NCBI RefSeq assembly: GCF_001553935.1
Contig: NZ_CP014232.1
Span: forward strand, 248,001-312,000
Reading direction: 5' to 3'
DNA: 64,000 nt
Origin: Actinomyces oris
GTDB lineage: Bacteria; Actinomycetota; Actinomycetes; Actinomycetales; Actinomycetaceae
Below the pieces are notes generated by a model. That model was given only the letters and a program-made list of their open reading frames with translations. It did not search any database and was not told the DNA's origin. Each line of letters opens with the position of its first letter. The first letter of the stretch is position 1. The translations under genes were made by a program, and so were the position numbers. Of this stretch, positions 56,732 to 64,000 are shown one piece after another.

Positions 56732-56760
56732 TTGACGAAACTGAGAATCATTCTTATATC
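56732..56760. promoter_or_regulatory. Zur-type box inside the promoter of the ribosomal paralogue operon
   Basis: TTGACG (56732-56737) and TATATC (56755-56760) are 17 bases apart. TGAGAATCATTCTTA (56742-56756), a near-perfect dyad around C56749, matches the actinobacterial Zur pattern and overlaps the spacer and -10. Repression by zinc-loaded Zur of the rightward operon follows, and the same box could control the divergent CobW-like gene. Predicted transcription starts only a few bases before the ATG at 56770. Confidence 0.75.
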
Positions 56761-56769
56761 ATGCTCGTC

Positions 56770-57009
56770 ATGACCACCTACTGCCAAGTCACGGGAGCCC
56801 GGCCTGTCTTCGGCCGGTCCGTCTCCCACTCCCACAAGCGCACGCCCCGACGCTGGGACCCCAACCTGCAGCGCAAGCGCTACTGGGTGCCGTCCCTGGG
56901 GCGCACCGTGCGCCTGACGGTGTCCGCCAAGGGCATCCGCACGATCGACAAGCTGGGCATCGACGTCGTCGTGGCTCAGATGCTCGCCCGAGGGGAGAAG
57001 CTGTCATGA
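56770..57009 (+). CDS. rpmB: 50S ribosomal protein L28, zinc-starvation paralogue
   Basis: A 79-residue L28. [21 protein letters not shown] and [27 protein letters not shown] (cited as [13 protein letters not shown]) are family segments. Only one Cys is present, so it lacks the CxxC zinc pairs of zinc-binding L28. ATG at 56770 was chosen over 56761 because it agrees with the promoter and homology. It heads the operon of zinc-free replacement ribosomal proteins, which free zinc from ribosomes under limitation. Confidence 0.92.
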
Positions 57010-57179
57010 GCGGGGCCAAGGGGAAGGACCTGCGGCCGATCATCAAGATGGTCTCCACTGCGGGGACGGGCCACACCTACGTGACCCGTAAGAACCGCCG
57101 CAACACCCCTGACCGGCTGGTGCTGCGCAAGTTCGATCCGGTGGTGCGCCGGCACGTGGAGTACAAGGAGTCGCGCTGA
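57006..57179 (+). CDS. rpmG: 50S ribosomal protein L33, zinc-free paralogue
   Basis: A 57-residue L33 with [20 protein letters not shown] and [17 protein letters not shown]. It contains no Cys at all, whereas zinc-binding L33 has two CxxC pairs. The ATG overlaps the L28 stop (ATGA), and the stop overlaps the S14 start by one base. Confidence 0.93.
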
Positions 57180-57484
57180 TGGCCAAGAAGTCCAAGATCG
57201 CCGCCGAGCTGCGGCGTCAGCAGGTGGTGGAGCGTTACGCCGAGCGTCGCGCCGAGCTCAAGCGGGCCTCGGTCAACCCTCACCTGAGCCAGGCCGAGCG
57301 CGATGAGGCCATGGCGGCACTGCACGCGCTGCCCCGCGACGCCTCCCCCACTCGTCTGCGTCGGCGCGACGCGGTGGACGGTCGCCCGCGCGGGCACCTG
57401 CGCGTCACCGGGACCTCCCGGGTGCGTTTCCGCGAGATGGCGCTGCGCGGCGAGCTGCCGGGCATCGTCAAGTCCTCCTGGTAG
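57179..57484 (+). CDS. rpsN: 30S ribosomal protein S14, zinc-free paralogue
   Basis: A 101-residue long-form S14. [21 protein letters not shown] at the N-terminus and the C-terminal [21 protein letters not shown] (cited as [17 protein letters not shown]) match the family. The CxxC..CxxC zinc motif of the short form is absent. It overlaps the L33 gene by one base. Expressed with the other C-minus paralogues under zinc limitation. Confidence 0.93.
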
Positions 57485-57524
57485 GCGGGTGCGGGCGGGG
57501 CGGGTCTGTGGGCCCGCACCCGCC
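57484..57524 (+). terminator. hairpin after rpsN, before rpmE
   Basis: GGCGGGTGCGGGC (57484-57496) pairs perfectly with 57512-57524. It may end the first operon or attenuate readthrough into rpmE-rpmJ. The 145-base gap shows no second clear Zur-like box. Confidence 0.55.
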
Positions 57525-57629
57525 GGGGCCTGCGGCGCAGCGCAGCCTCAGCCGCTCCCCTCTCAGCACCGCCGCCGGCATTCGTTCACCACGTCAGTTC
57601 TCATATTCACCCCCATCCAAGGAGCTCGT

Positions 57630-57920
57630 ATGCGCCCTGGGATCCACCCCAGCTACCAGCCCATCGTCTTTCGCGACAAGTCCGCCGGATTCGCCTTCCT
57701 GACCCGTTCGACCCTGACATCGTCGGAGACCATCGAGTGGGAGGACGGCAACACCTACCCGGTCTACGACGTCGAGGTCTCCAGCGCCTCGCACCCGTTC
57801 TGGACCGGCCAGGGCCGCATCCTCGACACGGCGGGCCGCGTGGAGAAGTTCGAGCGCCGCTACGGCAAGCGCGCCCACCCCGGCGCCAAGCCCGCCACCG
57901 CCGCCAAGAAGGGAGCCTGA
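57630..57920 (+). CDS. rpmE2: 50S ribosomal protein L31 type B, zinc-free
   Basis: A 96-residue type B L31. [20 protein letters not shown] and [20 protein letters not shown] are diagnostic, followed by [21 protein letters not shown]. No CxxC zinc pair is present. AAGGAG precedes the ATG. Type B L31 displaces zinc-bearing L31 during starvation. Confidence 0.94.
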
Positions 57921-57922
57921 GC

Positions 57923-58045
57923 ATGAAGGTTCGTGCCTCAATCCGGTCCCTGGCCAAGCAGCCGGGGTCCAAGGTGGTCCGACGCCGCGGCCACACCTAC
58001 GTCATCAACAAGAAGAATCCCCGCCTCAAGGCCCGCCAGGGCTGA
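57923..58045 (+). CDS. rpmJ: 50S ribosomal protein L36 type B, copy 1
   Basis: A 40-residue L36: [19 protein letters not shown] at the N-terminus and [11 protein letters not shown] at the end. It has no Cys, so it does not bind zinc. It starts two bases after the L31 stop with GGGAG before it. A second gene at 62012 encodes an identical protein. Confidence 0.95.
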
Positions 58046-58049
58046 GCGG

Positions 58050-58079
58050 CCCCATGGCCCCCGTATGGGGGCCATGGGG
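58050..58079 (+). terminator. terminator after the first rpmJ
   Basis: CCCCATGGCCCCC (58050-58062) pairs perfectly with 58067-58079 around GTAT. Confidence 0.75.
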
Positions 58080-58183
58080 AGCGCTGCCGTGCCAGCGCCG
58101 TTGTCGAGCGCGGCGCCCGCCCCTAGGCTAGGGCCGTATGGCGTCGGGCTCCCTGTTCCCGCGCGGCGCAGGAAGGACGAGGG

Positions 58184-58609
58184 ATGCACACGAGGATCCA
58201 AGGCCAACGGGTCGTGGTCTCCGCCGTCACCGCCGCCGCAGCGGCGCTGTGGATCGGGGGGATCGCCGGCTGCGCCTCCGACAACGGCAACACCGACGCC
58301 GACTACGTCAAGGTCTGCAAGGATCCCGCCACGGGGGAGCGCGTCGAGGACAAGAAGTGCGACGACGACACGGGCCCGGCCTCCCACTCCCACTCCCACC
58401 CCCACTGGGTCTACATGCCGATCTCGCGCGGCTCCTCGGTGAGCGCGCCCGGGGTCGGGCAGAAGGTGCCCTCGGGGTACAGCGACTCCAAGCCGTCGTC
58501 GAGCAGCAAGGTCACCACCTCGGACCGCTCAGGGGGCTCCTACTCGCGGGGCTCGGGCACCCGCCACGGGGGCTTCGGCTCGGGCTCCAAGGGCGGATCG
58601 GGGTCCTGA
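58184..58609 (+). CDS. YgiB-like (DUF1190) lipoprotein
   Basis: A 141-residue lipoprotein. A signal peptide ends in lipobox IAGC. The mature part has Cys pairs (KVCKDP, KKCDDD), a His cluster SHSHSHPHW and a YMP segment. The tail SGGSYSRGSGTRHGGFGSGS resembles the Gly/Ser-rich C-terminus of E. coli YgiB. It directly precedes a YgiC-like gene, the same pairing as E. coli ygiBC. Function is unknown. The His cluster could bind metal, which fits its position next to the zinc-starvation genes, but that is inference. Confidence 0.6.
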   Translation: MHTRIQGQRVVVSAVTAAAAALWIGGIAGCASDNGNTDADYVKVCKDPATGERVEDKKCDDDTGPASHSHSHPHWVYMPISRGSSVSAPGVGQKVPSGYSDSKPSSSSKVTTSDRSGGSYSRGSGTRHGGFGSGSKGGSGS

Positions 58610-59860
58610 GTGCAGCGCGTCCCATCCTCACCGCGCCCCGGGTGGCGCGACACCATCGCCCACCAGGGCCTCGTCTTCTCCGAGACCACCGACCCCGCCA
58701 CGGGGATCAGCACGAGCTACTGGAACGAGTTCGCCTGCTACGAGCTGACCATGGACGAGGTCGACCTCCTGGAGCGCACCAGCGAGAACCTCCACATGAT
58801 GGCCAAGGACGCCGCCGGCTTCCTCGCCGAGGAGTCGCTCAAGCCGGGCTCGCCCTTCAACCTGGGCATCCCGCGAGAGGCCATCGAGTACGCCACGGTC
58901 TCCCTCGACCGCGACGACCCCTCGCTCTACTCGCGCTTCGATCTCATCTACTCGGGCAACGACGGGCGGCCGCCCCGGATGCTGGAGTACAACGCGGACA
59001 CCCCCACGGGGCTGGTGGAGGCCGCCCTCATCCAGTGGTACTGGCACGAGGACGTCCATCTGAAGGCGGGCGTGACCGGCATCGACCAGTGGAACGGCAT
59101 CCACGAGGAGCTCATCGCCCAGTGGGGCCGCATCGACGACCACCTCGGGCGCCTCCACGGCCTGCGCCCCCACATGTACCACTTCGCCTACACCGACGCC
59201 GATGACTCCGGCGAGGACCTCATGACCACGGGCTATCTCATGGACACCGCCATCCAAGCGGGCCTGACCAGCACTCTCGTGGAGATGAAGCAGCTCGGGC
59301 TGGACAGGGAGACCGCCCGCTTCACCGATGGGAAGAACAGGCACCTGGAGGCCATCTTCAAGCTCTACCCGTGGGAGGAGATGATGTTCGAGGAGTTCGG
59401 CCCCGCGATCTGCGCGCTCAAGCCGGACTACTGGTTCCAGCCCGCCTGGACGATGTTCCTGTCCACCAAGGCGCTCAGCGCGGCGCTGTGGCACCTCTAC
59501 CCGAACCACCCCAACCTCATCCCCACTTACATGTACCCCGATGAGGCCCGCGCCCGACACGACACGATGGGCATGTCCGAGTACGTCATCAAGCCCCTGC
59601 ACGCCCGCGAGGGCGCGAACATCGAGCTGCACGGGGAGGGCCGGCACATCGTCCAGCCCGGCGGCTGGGGCATCGAGGGCTATGTCATCCAGGAGTTCTG
59701 CAAGCTCCCCGACTTCACCGGCTCCGATCGCCTGCACAACCGCCCGGTCCTGGGCACATGGATGGTGGGCGACGAGTGCTACGGCCTGGGCATCCGCGAG
59801 TCCGACGGCCCCATCACGGACTACTACTGCCGGTTCGTGCCCAACCGGATCCGCCTCTAG
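58610..59860 (+). CDS. YgiC-like ATP-grasp ligase (glutathionylspermidine synthase family)
   Basis: A 416-residue ATP-grasp enzyme of the glutathionylspermidine synthase C-terminal domain family. Motifs are LEYNADTPT (near residue 122), ATP-binding YVIKPLHAREGANIEL and the end GTWMVGDECYGLGIRES...YYCRFVP. Gsp amidase is missing. YgiC/YjfC-like enzymes have no confirmed substrate. The GTG begins directly after the lipoprotein stop, so they are one unit. The neighbouring amino acid permease suggests an amino-acid or amine substrate. Confidence 0.85.
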   Translation: MQRVPSSPRPGWRDTIAHQGLVFSETTDPATGISTSYWNEFACYELTMDEVDLLERTSENLHMMAKDAAGFLAEESLKPGSPFNLGIPREAIEYATVSLDRDDPSLYSRFDLIYSGNDGRPPRMLEYNADTPTGLVEAALIQWYWHEDVHLKAGVTGIDQWNGIHEELIAQWGRIDDHLGRLHGLRPHMYHFAYTDADDSGEDLMTTGYLMDTAIQAGLTSTLVEMKQLGLDRETARFTDGKNRHLEAIFKLYPWEEMMFEEFGPAICALKPDYWFQPAWTMFLSTKALSAALWHLYPNHPNLIPTYMYPDEARARHDTMGMSEYVIKPLHAREGANIELHGEGRHIVQPGGWGIEGYVIQEFCKLPDFTGSDRLHNRPVLGTWMVGDECYGLGIRESDGPITDYYCRFVPNRIRL

Positions 59861-59872
59861 GCGCCGGGAGCA

Positions 59873-61246
59873 GTGCTGGCACCCGGGTCGACGACGCCGC
59901 CGCGCCCTCCGCGCGAGGGCGGGGGCGCGCGTGGGACCGCGGCCGGCAGCGCGCACTCAGGCCCGGGCGATCCGGGTGGCGGTGCGGCTGGCGGCCCGCG
60001 CCTGAGCGTCCTCCAGGGATCCGCGCTCGCCCTGTCGGCCACGGCGCCGTGGTACTCGATCATGGTGACCGCGCCGCTCATCGCCGCGCTGGTCGGCTCG
60101 GGCACCGCCGTCGTCTACCTCCTGGCGGCGATCCCCGCCGCCCTCGTGGCCGCGGGCATGAGCGCCAACGACCGGCGCGACCCGCACAAGGGCAGCGTCT
60201 ACACATGGGTGCGGCGCGCCCTGCCGCGCACCGGGTGGTTCGCGGGCTTCTGCCTGGCCGCCACCGGAGTCATCGCCACCTCCGGCATGGCCTACGTGGC
60301 CGCCGACCTGCTCGCCCCCGCGGCGCCGGCGGCGCTCAAGGCGGCCCTGGCGGCGGTGCTCACCGCGCTCGCCGCCCTCATCGACCTCTACGAGTTGCGG
60401 CTCATGGCGGCCCTGCAGTACCTCGCCGTCATCGCGGGGCTCGGGGCGACGATCGTCTGCGCCGGGCTCGTGGCCGGGGGCGGGGTGCGCCTGGCGCCCA
60501 TGACTGGCTCGCCCCTCGACTGGTTCCACGCGGTGCTGCTGGCGGTCTTCGCCTACTGGGGCTTCGACGCGATCTTCGCGCTCACCGATGTCACGGGCGC
60601 AGGCGCGCCGCAGCGGGTCACCGCGCTGACGATGCTGGGGCTCATGGGGTTCTTCGCCGTGGGCGGGACGGCGTACAGTGCCGTCGACCCCGCTCCCGTG
60701 ACGGGGCATCTGGTGGTGCGCGTCGCGGTGGTCTCCTCGGCGATCATGAGCCTGGGCTCCACCCTCGTGCCGACGGCGCGCGGGATCGAGGCGATGGCCG
60801 ACGCCCGCCAGGTCCCCTCCTGGGCGGGCCGCCTGCGCTCCACCTCCTGGACGACGGCGGTGGTCACGGCCGCCTCGGTCGCCTGGACGGGCCTGCTCTT
60901 CGTCTCCGAGGGGCTCTTCACGGACACGGTGGAGGCCCTCAGCGTGCTCGTGGGCCTGTACTTCGCGGCGAGCTCGCTCATCGCCGCGATCCACGCCCGC
61001 TCCCGGCGCGAGCACCGGATCCAGTCGGTGGCGGTGGCCCTCATGGTCGTCATCACGGCGGCGGTGGCGATCCAGATGCTCGATCCGGGCTACGGGACGA
61101 CGGCGGTCTGTGGCGTCGGCGGGGTGGGGCTCATCGTCGTCGGGCTCAGCGCCCTCGGTGCGGCGGGAGCGCTGCGCTATGGGAGGCCCGACGGCGGGGC
61201 GGGCGGAGGCCGCCCCGACTCGGAGGGGCGCCGCGCGGCTGGGTAG
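59873..61246 (+). CDS. APC-family amino acid permease
   Basis: A 457-residue transporter with about twelve membrane segments. An N-terminal Gly/Pro/Ala-rich tail of about 45 residues is followed by the APC start GSALALSATAPWYSIM and then KGSVYTWVRRALPRTGWFAGF, typical of amino acid-polyamine-organocation carriers. The GTG start is 12 bases after the ATP-grasp stop. Substrate is unknown. Its codon choice appears richer in GCG than in genes outside the cassette. Confidence 0.82.
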   Translation: MLAPGSTTPPRPPREGGGARGTAAGSAHSGPGDPGGGAAGGPRLSVLQGSALALSATAPWYSIMVTAPLIAALVGSGTAVVYLLAAIPAALVAAGMSANDRRDPHKGSVYTWVRRALPRTGWFAGFCLAATGVIATSGMAYVAADLLAPAAPAALKAALAAVLTALAALIDLYELRLMAALQYLAVIAGLGATIVCAGLVAGGGVRLAPMTGSPLDWFHAVLLAVFAYWGFDAIFALTDVTGAGAPQRVTALTMLGLMGFFAVGGTAYSAVDPAPVTGHLVVRVAVVSSAIMSLGSTLVPTARGIEAMADARQVPSWAGRLRSTSWTTAVVTAASVAWTGLLFVSEGLFTDTVEALSVLVGLYFAASSLIAAIHARSRREHRIQSVAVALMVVITAAVAIQMLDPGYGTTAVCGVGGVGLIVVGLSALGAAGALRYGRPDGGAGGGRPDSEGRRAAG

Positions 61247-61268
61247 GCTGCGCGGTACGACTGCACCC

Positions 61269-62015
61269 GTGACCGCGACGGCTCCCGCCACGCCGTCGGC
61301 GCCCTCCCCCGCCCATCTCGTGCTCACCCTGTCCTGCCCGGACCGCCCCGGCATCGTTCACGCGGTCACGGGGGCGCTGGCGCGCCGCGGCGGGAACATC
61401 ACCGAGTCCTCGCAGTTCGGGGACGCCTCCACGGGCCTGTTCTTCATGCGGGTCCAGGTGCTCACCACCGTGCCGCGCGTGGAGTTGGAGAAGGACCTGG
61501 CCGAGCTGGCCGGCGAGTACGAGATGGAGTGGAGCCTCGATGAGGTGGGGCGCGCCATGCACACCCTCATCATGGTCTCCAAGGAGGGGCACTGCCTGAC
61601 CGACCTGCTCTTCAGGGCCCGCAGCCAGGGACTGCCGGTCGACGTCGTCGGCGTGGTGGGCAACCACGAGACGCTGCGGGACGTCGCCGAGTTCTACGGC
61701 GTCCCCTTCCACTGCATCCCGGTCACCAAGGACACCAAGGCGGAGGCGGAGGCCGAGCTGCTGGGGCTCGTGGACGAGCTCGGCGTGGAGCTCGTCGTGC
61801 TCGCGCGCTACATGCAGATCCTCTCGGAGTCCCTGTGCGAGAAGCTGCGCGGCAACGTCATCAACATCCACCACTCCTTCCTGCCGTCCTTCAAGGGCGC
61901 CAAGCCGTACCACCAGGCGCACGCGCGCGGGGTCAAGCTCATCGGCGCCACCGCCCCTCATCCCTGCTCTCGCGCCGCCATCACTGGACACGAAGAAGGA
62001 AAGGAGCCGACATGA
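61269..62015 (+). pseudogene. purU: truncated formyltetrahydrofolate deformylase
   Basis: The 248 residues match PurU, which hydrolyses 10-formyl-tetrahydrofolate to formate. The N-terminal ACT domain (LTLSCPDRPGIVHAVTGALA) and formyl transferase core ([38 protein letters not shown]) are intact up to GVKLIGATA. Homology then stops where HYVTEDLDAGPII-type sequence is expected, and an unrelated tail [19 protein letters not shown] runs into the second rpmJ. The missing part includes the catalytic Asp, so it is probably inactive. Its TGA overlaps the rpmJ ATG. Confidence 0.8.
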
Positions 62016-62134
62016 AGGTTCGTGCCTCAATCCGGTCCCTGGCCAAGCAGCCGGGGTCCAAGGTAGTCCGACGCCGCGGTCACACCTACGTCATCAACAA
62101 GAAGAACCCCCGTCTCAAGGCCCGTCAGGGCTAA
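62012..62134 (+). CDS. rpmJ: 50S ribosomal protein L36 type B, copy 2
   Basis: Encodes the same 40 residues as the gene at 57923. The two DNA copies differ at only six of 123 positions, all silent, including TGA versus TAA. AAAGGAG precedes it. It sits at the right edge of the cassette and has its own terminator. Confidence 0.95.
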
Positions 62135-62151
62135 GAGCCACCACCACCCAC

Positions 62152-62195
62152 GCAGGGCCGGGATGCGTCTCAGACCGCATCCCGGCCCTGCTTTT
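62152..62195 (+). terminator. canonical terminator after the second rpmJ
   Basis: GCAGGGCCGGGATGCG (62152-62167) pairs perfectly with 62176-62191 and is followed by TTTT. Confidence 0.88.
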
Positions 62196-62421: not shown

Positions 62422-62736
62422 ATGCACCTCACCCCTCGTGAGCAGGAGAAGCTACTCATCGTCGTCGCCGCAGACCTGGCGCGAAGACGCAAGGACAGGG
62501 GTATCCGGCTCAATCATCCTGAGGCAGTCGCCTACATCACCGCGGAGATCCTCGAGGGGGCCCGCGAAGGGCGCACGGTCACGGATCTCATGGCCTACGG
62601 GGCCACCCTGCTGACCTACGACGACGTCATGGAGGGAGTCCCCGAGATGATCCGCGCGGTCCAGGTGGAGGCGACCTTCCCCGACGGGACCAAGCTCGTC
62701 TCCGTTCACGACCCGATTCGCAGGAGTCTGCCATGA
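62422..62736 (+). CDS. ureA: urease gamma subunit
   Basis: A 104-residue subunit of the nickel urease that hydrolyses urea to ammonia and carbamate. [40 protein letters not shown] and [20 protein letters not shown] (cited as [18 protein letters not shown]) are highly conserved. ATG at 62422 follows GGGAGAG; an upstream in-frame extension is not part of the family. Its TGA overlaps ureB. Confidence 0.97.
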
Positions 62737-63044
62737 TCCCCGGGGAGTACCGACTCGTGAACGACACCATCACCATCAACGAGGGCCGCCCCACTCTCCG
62801 TCTCGACGTCCTCAACACCGGGGACCGTCCCATTCAGGTCGGTTCGCACTTCCACTTCGCCGAGGTCAACCCCGCGCTGTCCTTCGACCGGCGGGCCGCT
62901 CGTGGCTTCCGCCTCGACATTCCGGCCGGAACCGCGGTTCGCTTCGAGCCGGGCGACTCCCGACCAGTCCACCTGGTAGCGCTGGCGGGAGCACGGCGGG
63001 TCTTCGGTCTGGCAGGCGAGACGAACGGCCCGGTCGAGGGCTGA
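62733..63044 (+). CDS. ureB: urease beta subunit
   Basis: A 103-residue structural subunit. [38 protein letters not shown] and [17 protein letters not shown] match the family. The ATG overlaps the ureA stop (ATGA). It follows the separate gamma/beta/alpha layout of Gram-positive ureases rather than the fused Helicobacter form. Confidence 0.97.
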
Positions 63045-63061
63045 GAGCACAGGAGCACATC

Positions 63062-64000
<939 letters not shown>

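Follow-up and report, generated by a model that had tools for sequence, protein, structure and literature searches.

The question raised by this locus is why an Actinomyces oris genome carries the same ribosomal protein gene twice, with four other genes in between. The locus lies in a stretch of 64,000 nucleotides, here called the window (bases 248001–312000 of a single-contig genome of 3,042,917 bases in total, labeled G000 in our comparisons), in which two rpmJ genes bracket a cassette of ygiB-like, ygiC-like, and permease genes followed by a truncated purU, which we call purU'. A tree of the flank genes glyA, rpmG, and rpsN places the window genome beside G020, probably A. oris CCUG 34288, among the oral species (support 0.869), and on this placement it belongs to the oral Actinomyces group. 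The bracketed segment is a real and well-resolved horizontal acquisition, an event of a known kind, and for the duplicated rpmJ the best reading is that of a by-product of this event, not that of an attachment site.

The two rpmJ genes (copy 1, 57923–58045; copy 2, the resident copy, 62012–62134; both on the plus strand) are 4,089 bases apart. A sequence-only reading of the window had described them as repeats of about 123 bases with identical proteins and six silent differences; places, length, and proteins stand, but only five of the six differences are synonymous, the sixth lying in the stop codon (TGA vs TAA). Together with their flanks, the copies form a direct repeat of 147 bases with 91.8% identity (57908–58054 vs 61999–62143), far above chance. 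The type B forms of L31 and L36 serve as zinc-independent replacements; the match of the copy 1 protein to NF002021 (71.7 bits, cut-off 70) and its lack of zinc-binding cysteines (none in 40 residues) predict that it is such a type B L36. In a survey of 49 genomes of the genus (rpmJ counted at E ≤ 1e-6, ygiC at E ≤ 1e-20), this rpmJ is found in 38, as a single copy in 37 and as two copies only in the window genome. Behind copy 1 there is a perfect GC-rich hairpin without a T run (58050–58079), and behind copy 2 a terminator-like hairpin followed by a T run (62154–62195) and then the urease operon.

The genes between the copies are those that the sequence-only reading had described, all on the plus strand: a ygiB-like small lipoprotein gene (58184–58609), a ygiC-like ATP-grasp gene (58610–59860; GSP_synth, PF03738), an APC family permease gene (59873–61246), and the cut-off purU' (61269–62015). 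The ygiB-like gene is named from its position and a lipobox-like start, its protein having no match in Pfam or NCBIfam, and the permease, with no Pfam match above cut-off, is named from relatives that are annotated as APC family permeases or carry PF13520. None of the segment proteins scanned matched an integrase or transposase family. The G+C content at third codon positions, which the same reading had proposed as a check, proved uninformative, with 94.0–96.2% for the cassette genes against 96.6% for glyA, 89.2% for rpsN, and 81.7% for ureB; the donor was probably a member of the same genus.

Relatives lacking the cassette and the second rpmJ had been predicted, and they exist: all 11 oral relatives in the survey have a single rpmJ and lack the cassette in the interval between rpmJ and purU. 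In six of them (G030, G021, G018, G001, G014, and G045) urease genes lie between rpmJ and purU, and in five (G040, G022, G039, G020, and G035) the purU match starts 83–121 bases behind rpmJ. The ygiC gene occurs in seven of the 49 genomes and in none of the oral relatives. Five other genomes (G042, G006, G016, G017, and G013, the last with one further open frame ahead of ygiB) have the genes in the order rpmJ-ygiB-ygiC-permease-purU; they share genes, order, and interval with the window genome, but their rpmJ is single, the match to purU extends to the query end, and the interval holds no urease genes. The interval survey covers the 38 genomes with this rpmJ; the 11 genomes without it stand outside, and one of these, G031, also has ygiC. 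In the 37 other rpmJ genomes, the distance between rpmJ and the point where the purU match begins is 49–444 bases in 14, 0.7–0.8 kb in four, and 1.6–2.7 kb in four; ygiBC-permease fills the interval in five and urease genes in seven, and three are unmeasurable in the fetched stretch or rearranged. Further contents, judged from translations without a family search, are an ABC exporter (G025), a transposase (G004), and a CbiM-like transporter together with urease (G008). Given these differing contents, we regard the rpmJ-purU interval as variable in Actinomyces and mark it as such. Urease and ygiBC occur together only in the window genome, among the rpmJ genomes surveyed; there ureA, ureB, and the start of ureC (62423–64000, plus strand) belong to a resident urease operon that extends beyond the end of the window, as far as a resident purU (about 68546–69415).

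The cassette and its flanks differ in their affinities. From 58057 to 61956 the window is collinear with G042, probably A. timonensis, at 94.5% identity, and the flank at 56732–57482 is 82.0% identical to the same genome. For ygiC and the permease together, identity is 97.2% to G042, 91.8% to G006, and 90.8% to G016; for the flank genes it is 85.9% to G042, the printed values for six oral relatives being 95.2–97.3%. In a tree of ygiC plus permease from six genomes, G000 pairs with G042 with a support of 1.000. The claim that the segment was acquired is thus borne out by cassette-free relatives and by the conflict of identity and tree with the flanks. Per 100 bases, likeness to G042 is mostly 92–100%, falling to 84–89% at 58200–58399, to 86% at 59900–59999, and lower within a tract of purU' described below. 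In addition, 221 bases present between rpmJ and ygiB of G042 are missing from the window; the motif GCCCCCG flanks them in G042 and occurs once in the window, at 58057–58063. Within these 221 bases, G042 has a 22-base perfect inverted repeat bounding about 120 bases (L038, 10218–10337), and G006 has a stretch 75% similar to it, which has the look of a small mobile-repeat-like element behind rpmJ. From these comparisons G042 is to be regarded as a near relative of the donor, not as the donor.

On the left, donor-type sequence begins not in rpmJ but in the gene ahead of it, rpmE (57630–57920, plus strand), whose family match is to type B L31. A site table with G042 as donor and 10 of the 11 oral relatives as residents (G001 was omitted, rpmE not having been found there) places a switch from resident to donor type at 57791–57824: the last resident-type site that separates the window from all three donor genomes is at 57791, and the first donor-type sites are at 57816–57824. 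The donor base at 57816–57818 is also found in three of the 10 relatives, that at 57824 in none. Of 93 separating sites at 57000–57791, 89 are resident, three donor, and one other, and 15 of 17 are of donor type at 57816–57893; at 57875, 57879, and 57880 the window agrees with all three donor genomes and with none of the 10 relatives. This pattern predicts a chimeric RpmE with a donor-like tail, a C-terminal extension of about 15 residues absent from the aligned oral relatives, whose rpmE stops at about residue 81. The table prints six of seven sites at 57906–57916 as resident, but we discount these calls as an alignment shift because the sequence there (AAGAAGGGAGCCTGAGC) is identical to G042. 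In G001, tblastn found no rpmE between rpsN and rpmJ (L046), although rpmG, rpsN, and rpmJ are present, an apparent loss of type B L31 judged from the sequence.

On the right, purU' tracks G042 up to 61956, beyond which comes sequence matching what oral relatives have between rpmE and rpmJ (61957–62011), leading into the second rpmJ. The junction contains 13 bases, GGCGCCACCGCCC (61944–61956), common to donor purU and to the rpmE-rpmJ spacer of G022, one of 10 oral relatives whose spacers were compared; outside this short shared word purU' and the spacer are unrelated, and the joint, about 56 bases ahead of the second rpmJ, is therefore illegitimate. A comparison of the G022 spacer with 4.4 kb of donor sequence gives no longer common word, and this one sits at the joint; among 500 resampled spacers, 12 had a shared word of at least 13 bases anywhere. 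The PurU part of the reading frame comprises 229 residues and ends at 61955; 19 residues read through the resident spacer follow, and the TGA stop at 62015 overlaps the rpmJ start as ATGA, so that purU is not cut exactly before the second rpmJ, as had been supposed. From 62001 (or 62011) to about 69420 the sequence is 90.4–96.0% identical to six urease-bearing oral relatives. A crossover at rpmJ itself, which the sequence-only reading had proposed, is rejected since the borders lie in rpmE and in the rpmE-rpmJ spacer.

The truncated and the intact purU differ in origin. Separating sites in purU' number 15 donor and three resident at 61300–61425; 52 resident, two donor, and one other at 61426–61700, a resident-type tract; and 41 donor and one resident at 61701–61956. 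Five differences separate the tract from the intact purU of the same genome: two are also found in other oral relatives, and the last, at 61700, lies at the donor-type edge. The tract is therefore of oral type, but it is not a clean copy of the purU that the genome has today. The intact gene is of resident type, uninterrupted, and without a donor patch, being 55–88% identical to G042 and 90–100% to six oral relatives, with the exception of the last segment compared, at the gene end (58–62% to the six). The two genes are about 7.3 kb apart and 89.4% identical over 651 bases. The loss of the purU 3' end supposed in the sequence-only reading thus did not befall the resident gene; the truncated copy is the incoming one. 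Its match covers positions 2–136 of 181 in the profile of the formyltransferase domain, and with the last part absent purU' is probably inactive. G030 has a two-part purU fragment, about 250 bases long (L154, 7517–7819, reverse complement), about 5.4 kb downstream of its intact purU and ahead of the conserved downstream genes, another insertion between purU and a purU remnant.

A second resident-type patch lies in rpmJ copy 1, amid donor-type surroundings, where sites 57931, 57979, and 57982 agree with all 10 relatives against all three donor genomes. Base 57940 is an A, as is the corresponding base of copy 2 (62029), and this A is found in none of the 11 oral and none of the three donor genomes; among the 37 other rpmJ genomes it is seen in two (G019 and G033). 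Because of this shared base, the comparison points to the resident rpmJ copy as the source of the patch. Farther on, the sites at 57991–58073 are mixed (four donor, two resident, one other), and the return to donor type is therefore not sharp.

We posit, with a probability of roughly 0.6, that the segment originated in one event, by homologous recombination on one side and microhomology joining on the other, with resident-type patches in addition. The recipient would have been an oral Actinomyces with the order rpmE-rpmJ-urease-purU, and the incoming fragment, rpmE'-rpmJ'-ygiB-ygiC-permease-purU', would have come from a relative close to G042. On the left the fragment would have paired and recombined homologously with resident rpmE; on the right there would have been no exchange at the distant resident purU, and about 13 GC-rich shared bases would have joined the fragment to the spacer behind rpmE. 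Such an event would have gained about 4.1 kb, lost about 0.1 kb, and left rpmJ and part of purU in duplicate. The patches in rpmJ copy 1 and purU' would reflect mosaic strand exchange or later gene conversion by the resident copies.

Homology-facilitated illegitimate recombination (HFIR) has been described in the transformable species Streptococcus pneumoniae, Acinetobacter baylyi, and Pseudomonas stutzeri, and at a low rate in Escherichia coli conjugation; its published pattern is a gain of about 1 kb, a deletion of similar size, and 3–10 shared bases at the joint (PMC3240628). The locus has the marks of HFIR, given that one border is homologous, the other is illegitimate with a short word, foreign genes were gained, and little was lost. 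With the published cases, it shares one end in a homologous gene, an illegitimate short-word joint at the other, and a gain of foreign DNA, but it differs in its very small resident loss, in a 13-base word (in the G022 spacer, one of 10 relatives) slightly longer than the usual 3–10 bases, and in being historical and not selected in the laboratory. A further difference is the short distance between the joint and the homologous end, only about 0.1 kb, as a result of which the anchor region is duplicated. For single transformation events in Bacillus subtilis, mosaic patches are reported (PMC13344027), and here too short patches of donor and recipient type alternate near a single integration site; the difference is that purU' is an ectopic truncated copy, so that later gene conversion is an alternative source of its patch. 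Recombination or horizontal transfer in the A. oris/A. naeslundii group is in print (PMC3127948, PMC9964710). No title on this locus stood among the literature matches listed, which is no proof of absence.

Several observations weigh against a single event of this kind. The loss, about 0.1 kb of rpmE end and spacer as estimated from relatives, is far below the gain of about 4.1 kb. The 13-base word is present in only one of the 10 relatives' spacers (G022) and lacking in the other nine, and a microhomology in the true recipient is therefore something we infer. The cassette is unevenly close to G042, as the 84–89% at 58200–58399 and the missing 221 bases show, so that either the donor was a genome other than G042 or changes occurred afterwards. 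Genes of the ComEC and DprA families are present in the window genome, but the same searches also match in E. coli; uptake by transformation is therefore only a possible entry route.

A two-step history, the main rival, fits the observations nearly as well, although we consider it rather unlikely on the whole. Here, donor DNA would have replaced the rpmJ-purU interval of an oral strain by double crossover, leaving a mosaic rpmE, rpmJ copy 1, and purU (the switch in rpmE then belonging to the earlier event), and a piece comprising spacer, rpmJ, urease, and purU would have been added later from a urease-positive oral strain, by homology at purU or beyond and with an illegitimate left end. The resident-type patches in rpmJ copy 1 and purU' would then be ordinary allelic mosaicism with no need of ectopic conversion, a reading that suits a purU' patch of oral type with five differences from the intact purU of the same genome, and the contents of the interval do vary by species, from nearly nothing to ygiBC-permease, urease, or other genes. 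Against this, two events are required, and the intact resident purU carries no donor patch, though such a patch could have been lost.

A very improbable alternative is that a tandem duplication arose in an arrangement of the G042 type when DNA paired unequally during transformation. Such a merodiploid model is described in S. pneumoniae (PMC3784515) and would account for the duplication of both rpmJ and purU, but both flanks are of oral type, the spacer ahead of the second rpmJ and the sequence downstream of it are of resident type, and the model described there needs repeats in donor and host at the joint, where here at most 13 bases are shared. What the locus has in common with those merodiploids is that direct repeats are left that are able to recombine again; here they result from a small insertion with an illegitimate joint, there from a large tandem duplication between pre-existing repeats. 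Less probable again is an ancestral arrangement in which a common ancestor had both cassettes and both rpmJ genes and relatives lost one or the other: ygiBC-permease and urease each occupy the same interval in several species, but none of the 37 other rpmJ genomes has two copies, the cassette is far nearer G042 than the flanks are (97.2% vs 85.9%), and purU' at 61700–61949 is 98–100% identical to G042 per 50-base window. A site-specific integrative element with the rpmJ copies as attachment sites, suggested by direct repeats of a conserved gene on either side of the segment, has a nearly negligible probability and is rejected, since donor sequence starts left of rpmJ in rpmE, the right joint lies left of the second rpmJ, five other genomes hold the cassette at the same place with a single rpmJ, and the scanned proteins gave no integrase or transposase match.

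The joint itself recurs in other public sequences. Among the best 120 of 7409 matches in a protein search with purU', six cluster representatives (P0001–P0006) have the same last 20 residues, which span the joint, and the joint is therefore probably not an artefact of one assembly. Their upstream parts differ; P0001–P0003 read like pieces of the purU' and the purU of the window genome, and P0004–P0006 are more divergent. Such sequences would be expected from recombination continuing behind one fixed joint, and equally from assembly chimeras between paralogs. A pattern search for the joint across the 49 genomes, with a query one base off the true joint, adds little weight: it matched in 34 genomes, the own genome at one mismatch and the others listed at two or three, and a reversed control also yielded matches at two or three mismatches. 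A further match, P0130, on a contig of 520 bases, has RpmE residues 1–72 of the window genome joined straight to the PurU' tail; a deletion within the cassette region or a misassembly could account for it.

To our knowledge, homology-assisted illegitimate joining is known mainly from laboratory selection. The present locus offers a natural event that is legible nearly base by base, with a near relative of the donor, the recipient clade, cassette-free sites, both borders, and the patches. It also illustrates how duplication of a ribosomal protein gene next to a variable interval can arise as a side effect, which annotation could mistake for a functional duplication or an integration site. The second rpmJ now stands behind the permease and purU', and its ATG overlaps the stop codon of purU'; its expression may therefore be separate from that of the rpmE-rpmJ copy 1 group. 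Recombination within the rpmJ pair or the purU pair could remove one cassette by one deletion. A broader and quite doubtful proposal is that rpmJ-purU is a genus-wide exchange slot for alternative metabolic cassettes and that the window genome represents a metastable two-way state, with two cassettes stacked between two repeat pairs. If this were true, deletion between the rpmJ copies would yield a urease-only form and deletion between purU' and purU a ygiBC-only form, populations could sort two otherwise exclusive cassettes following one illegitimate join, and the differing purU' alleles behind the fixed joint in P0001–P0006 would represent ongoing recombination.

The left end of the locus is a rpmG-rpsN-rpmE-rpmJ group of ribosomal protein genes, including those of type B L31 and type B L36, and a divergent gene beside it resembles the MRF GTPase, scoring below the model cut-off. 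Immediately upstream of the minus-strand glyA lies a ZMP/ZTP riboswitch (RF01750; 55319–55404, minus strand); purU, at the far end of the interval, is also a one-carbon folate gene. In the urease operon, a match to the Rfam family 5_ureB_sRNA (85 bits; 63214–63506, minus strand) is antisense to ureC and may reflect conserved coding sequence and not an RNA gene.

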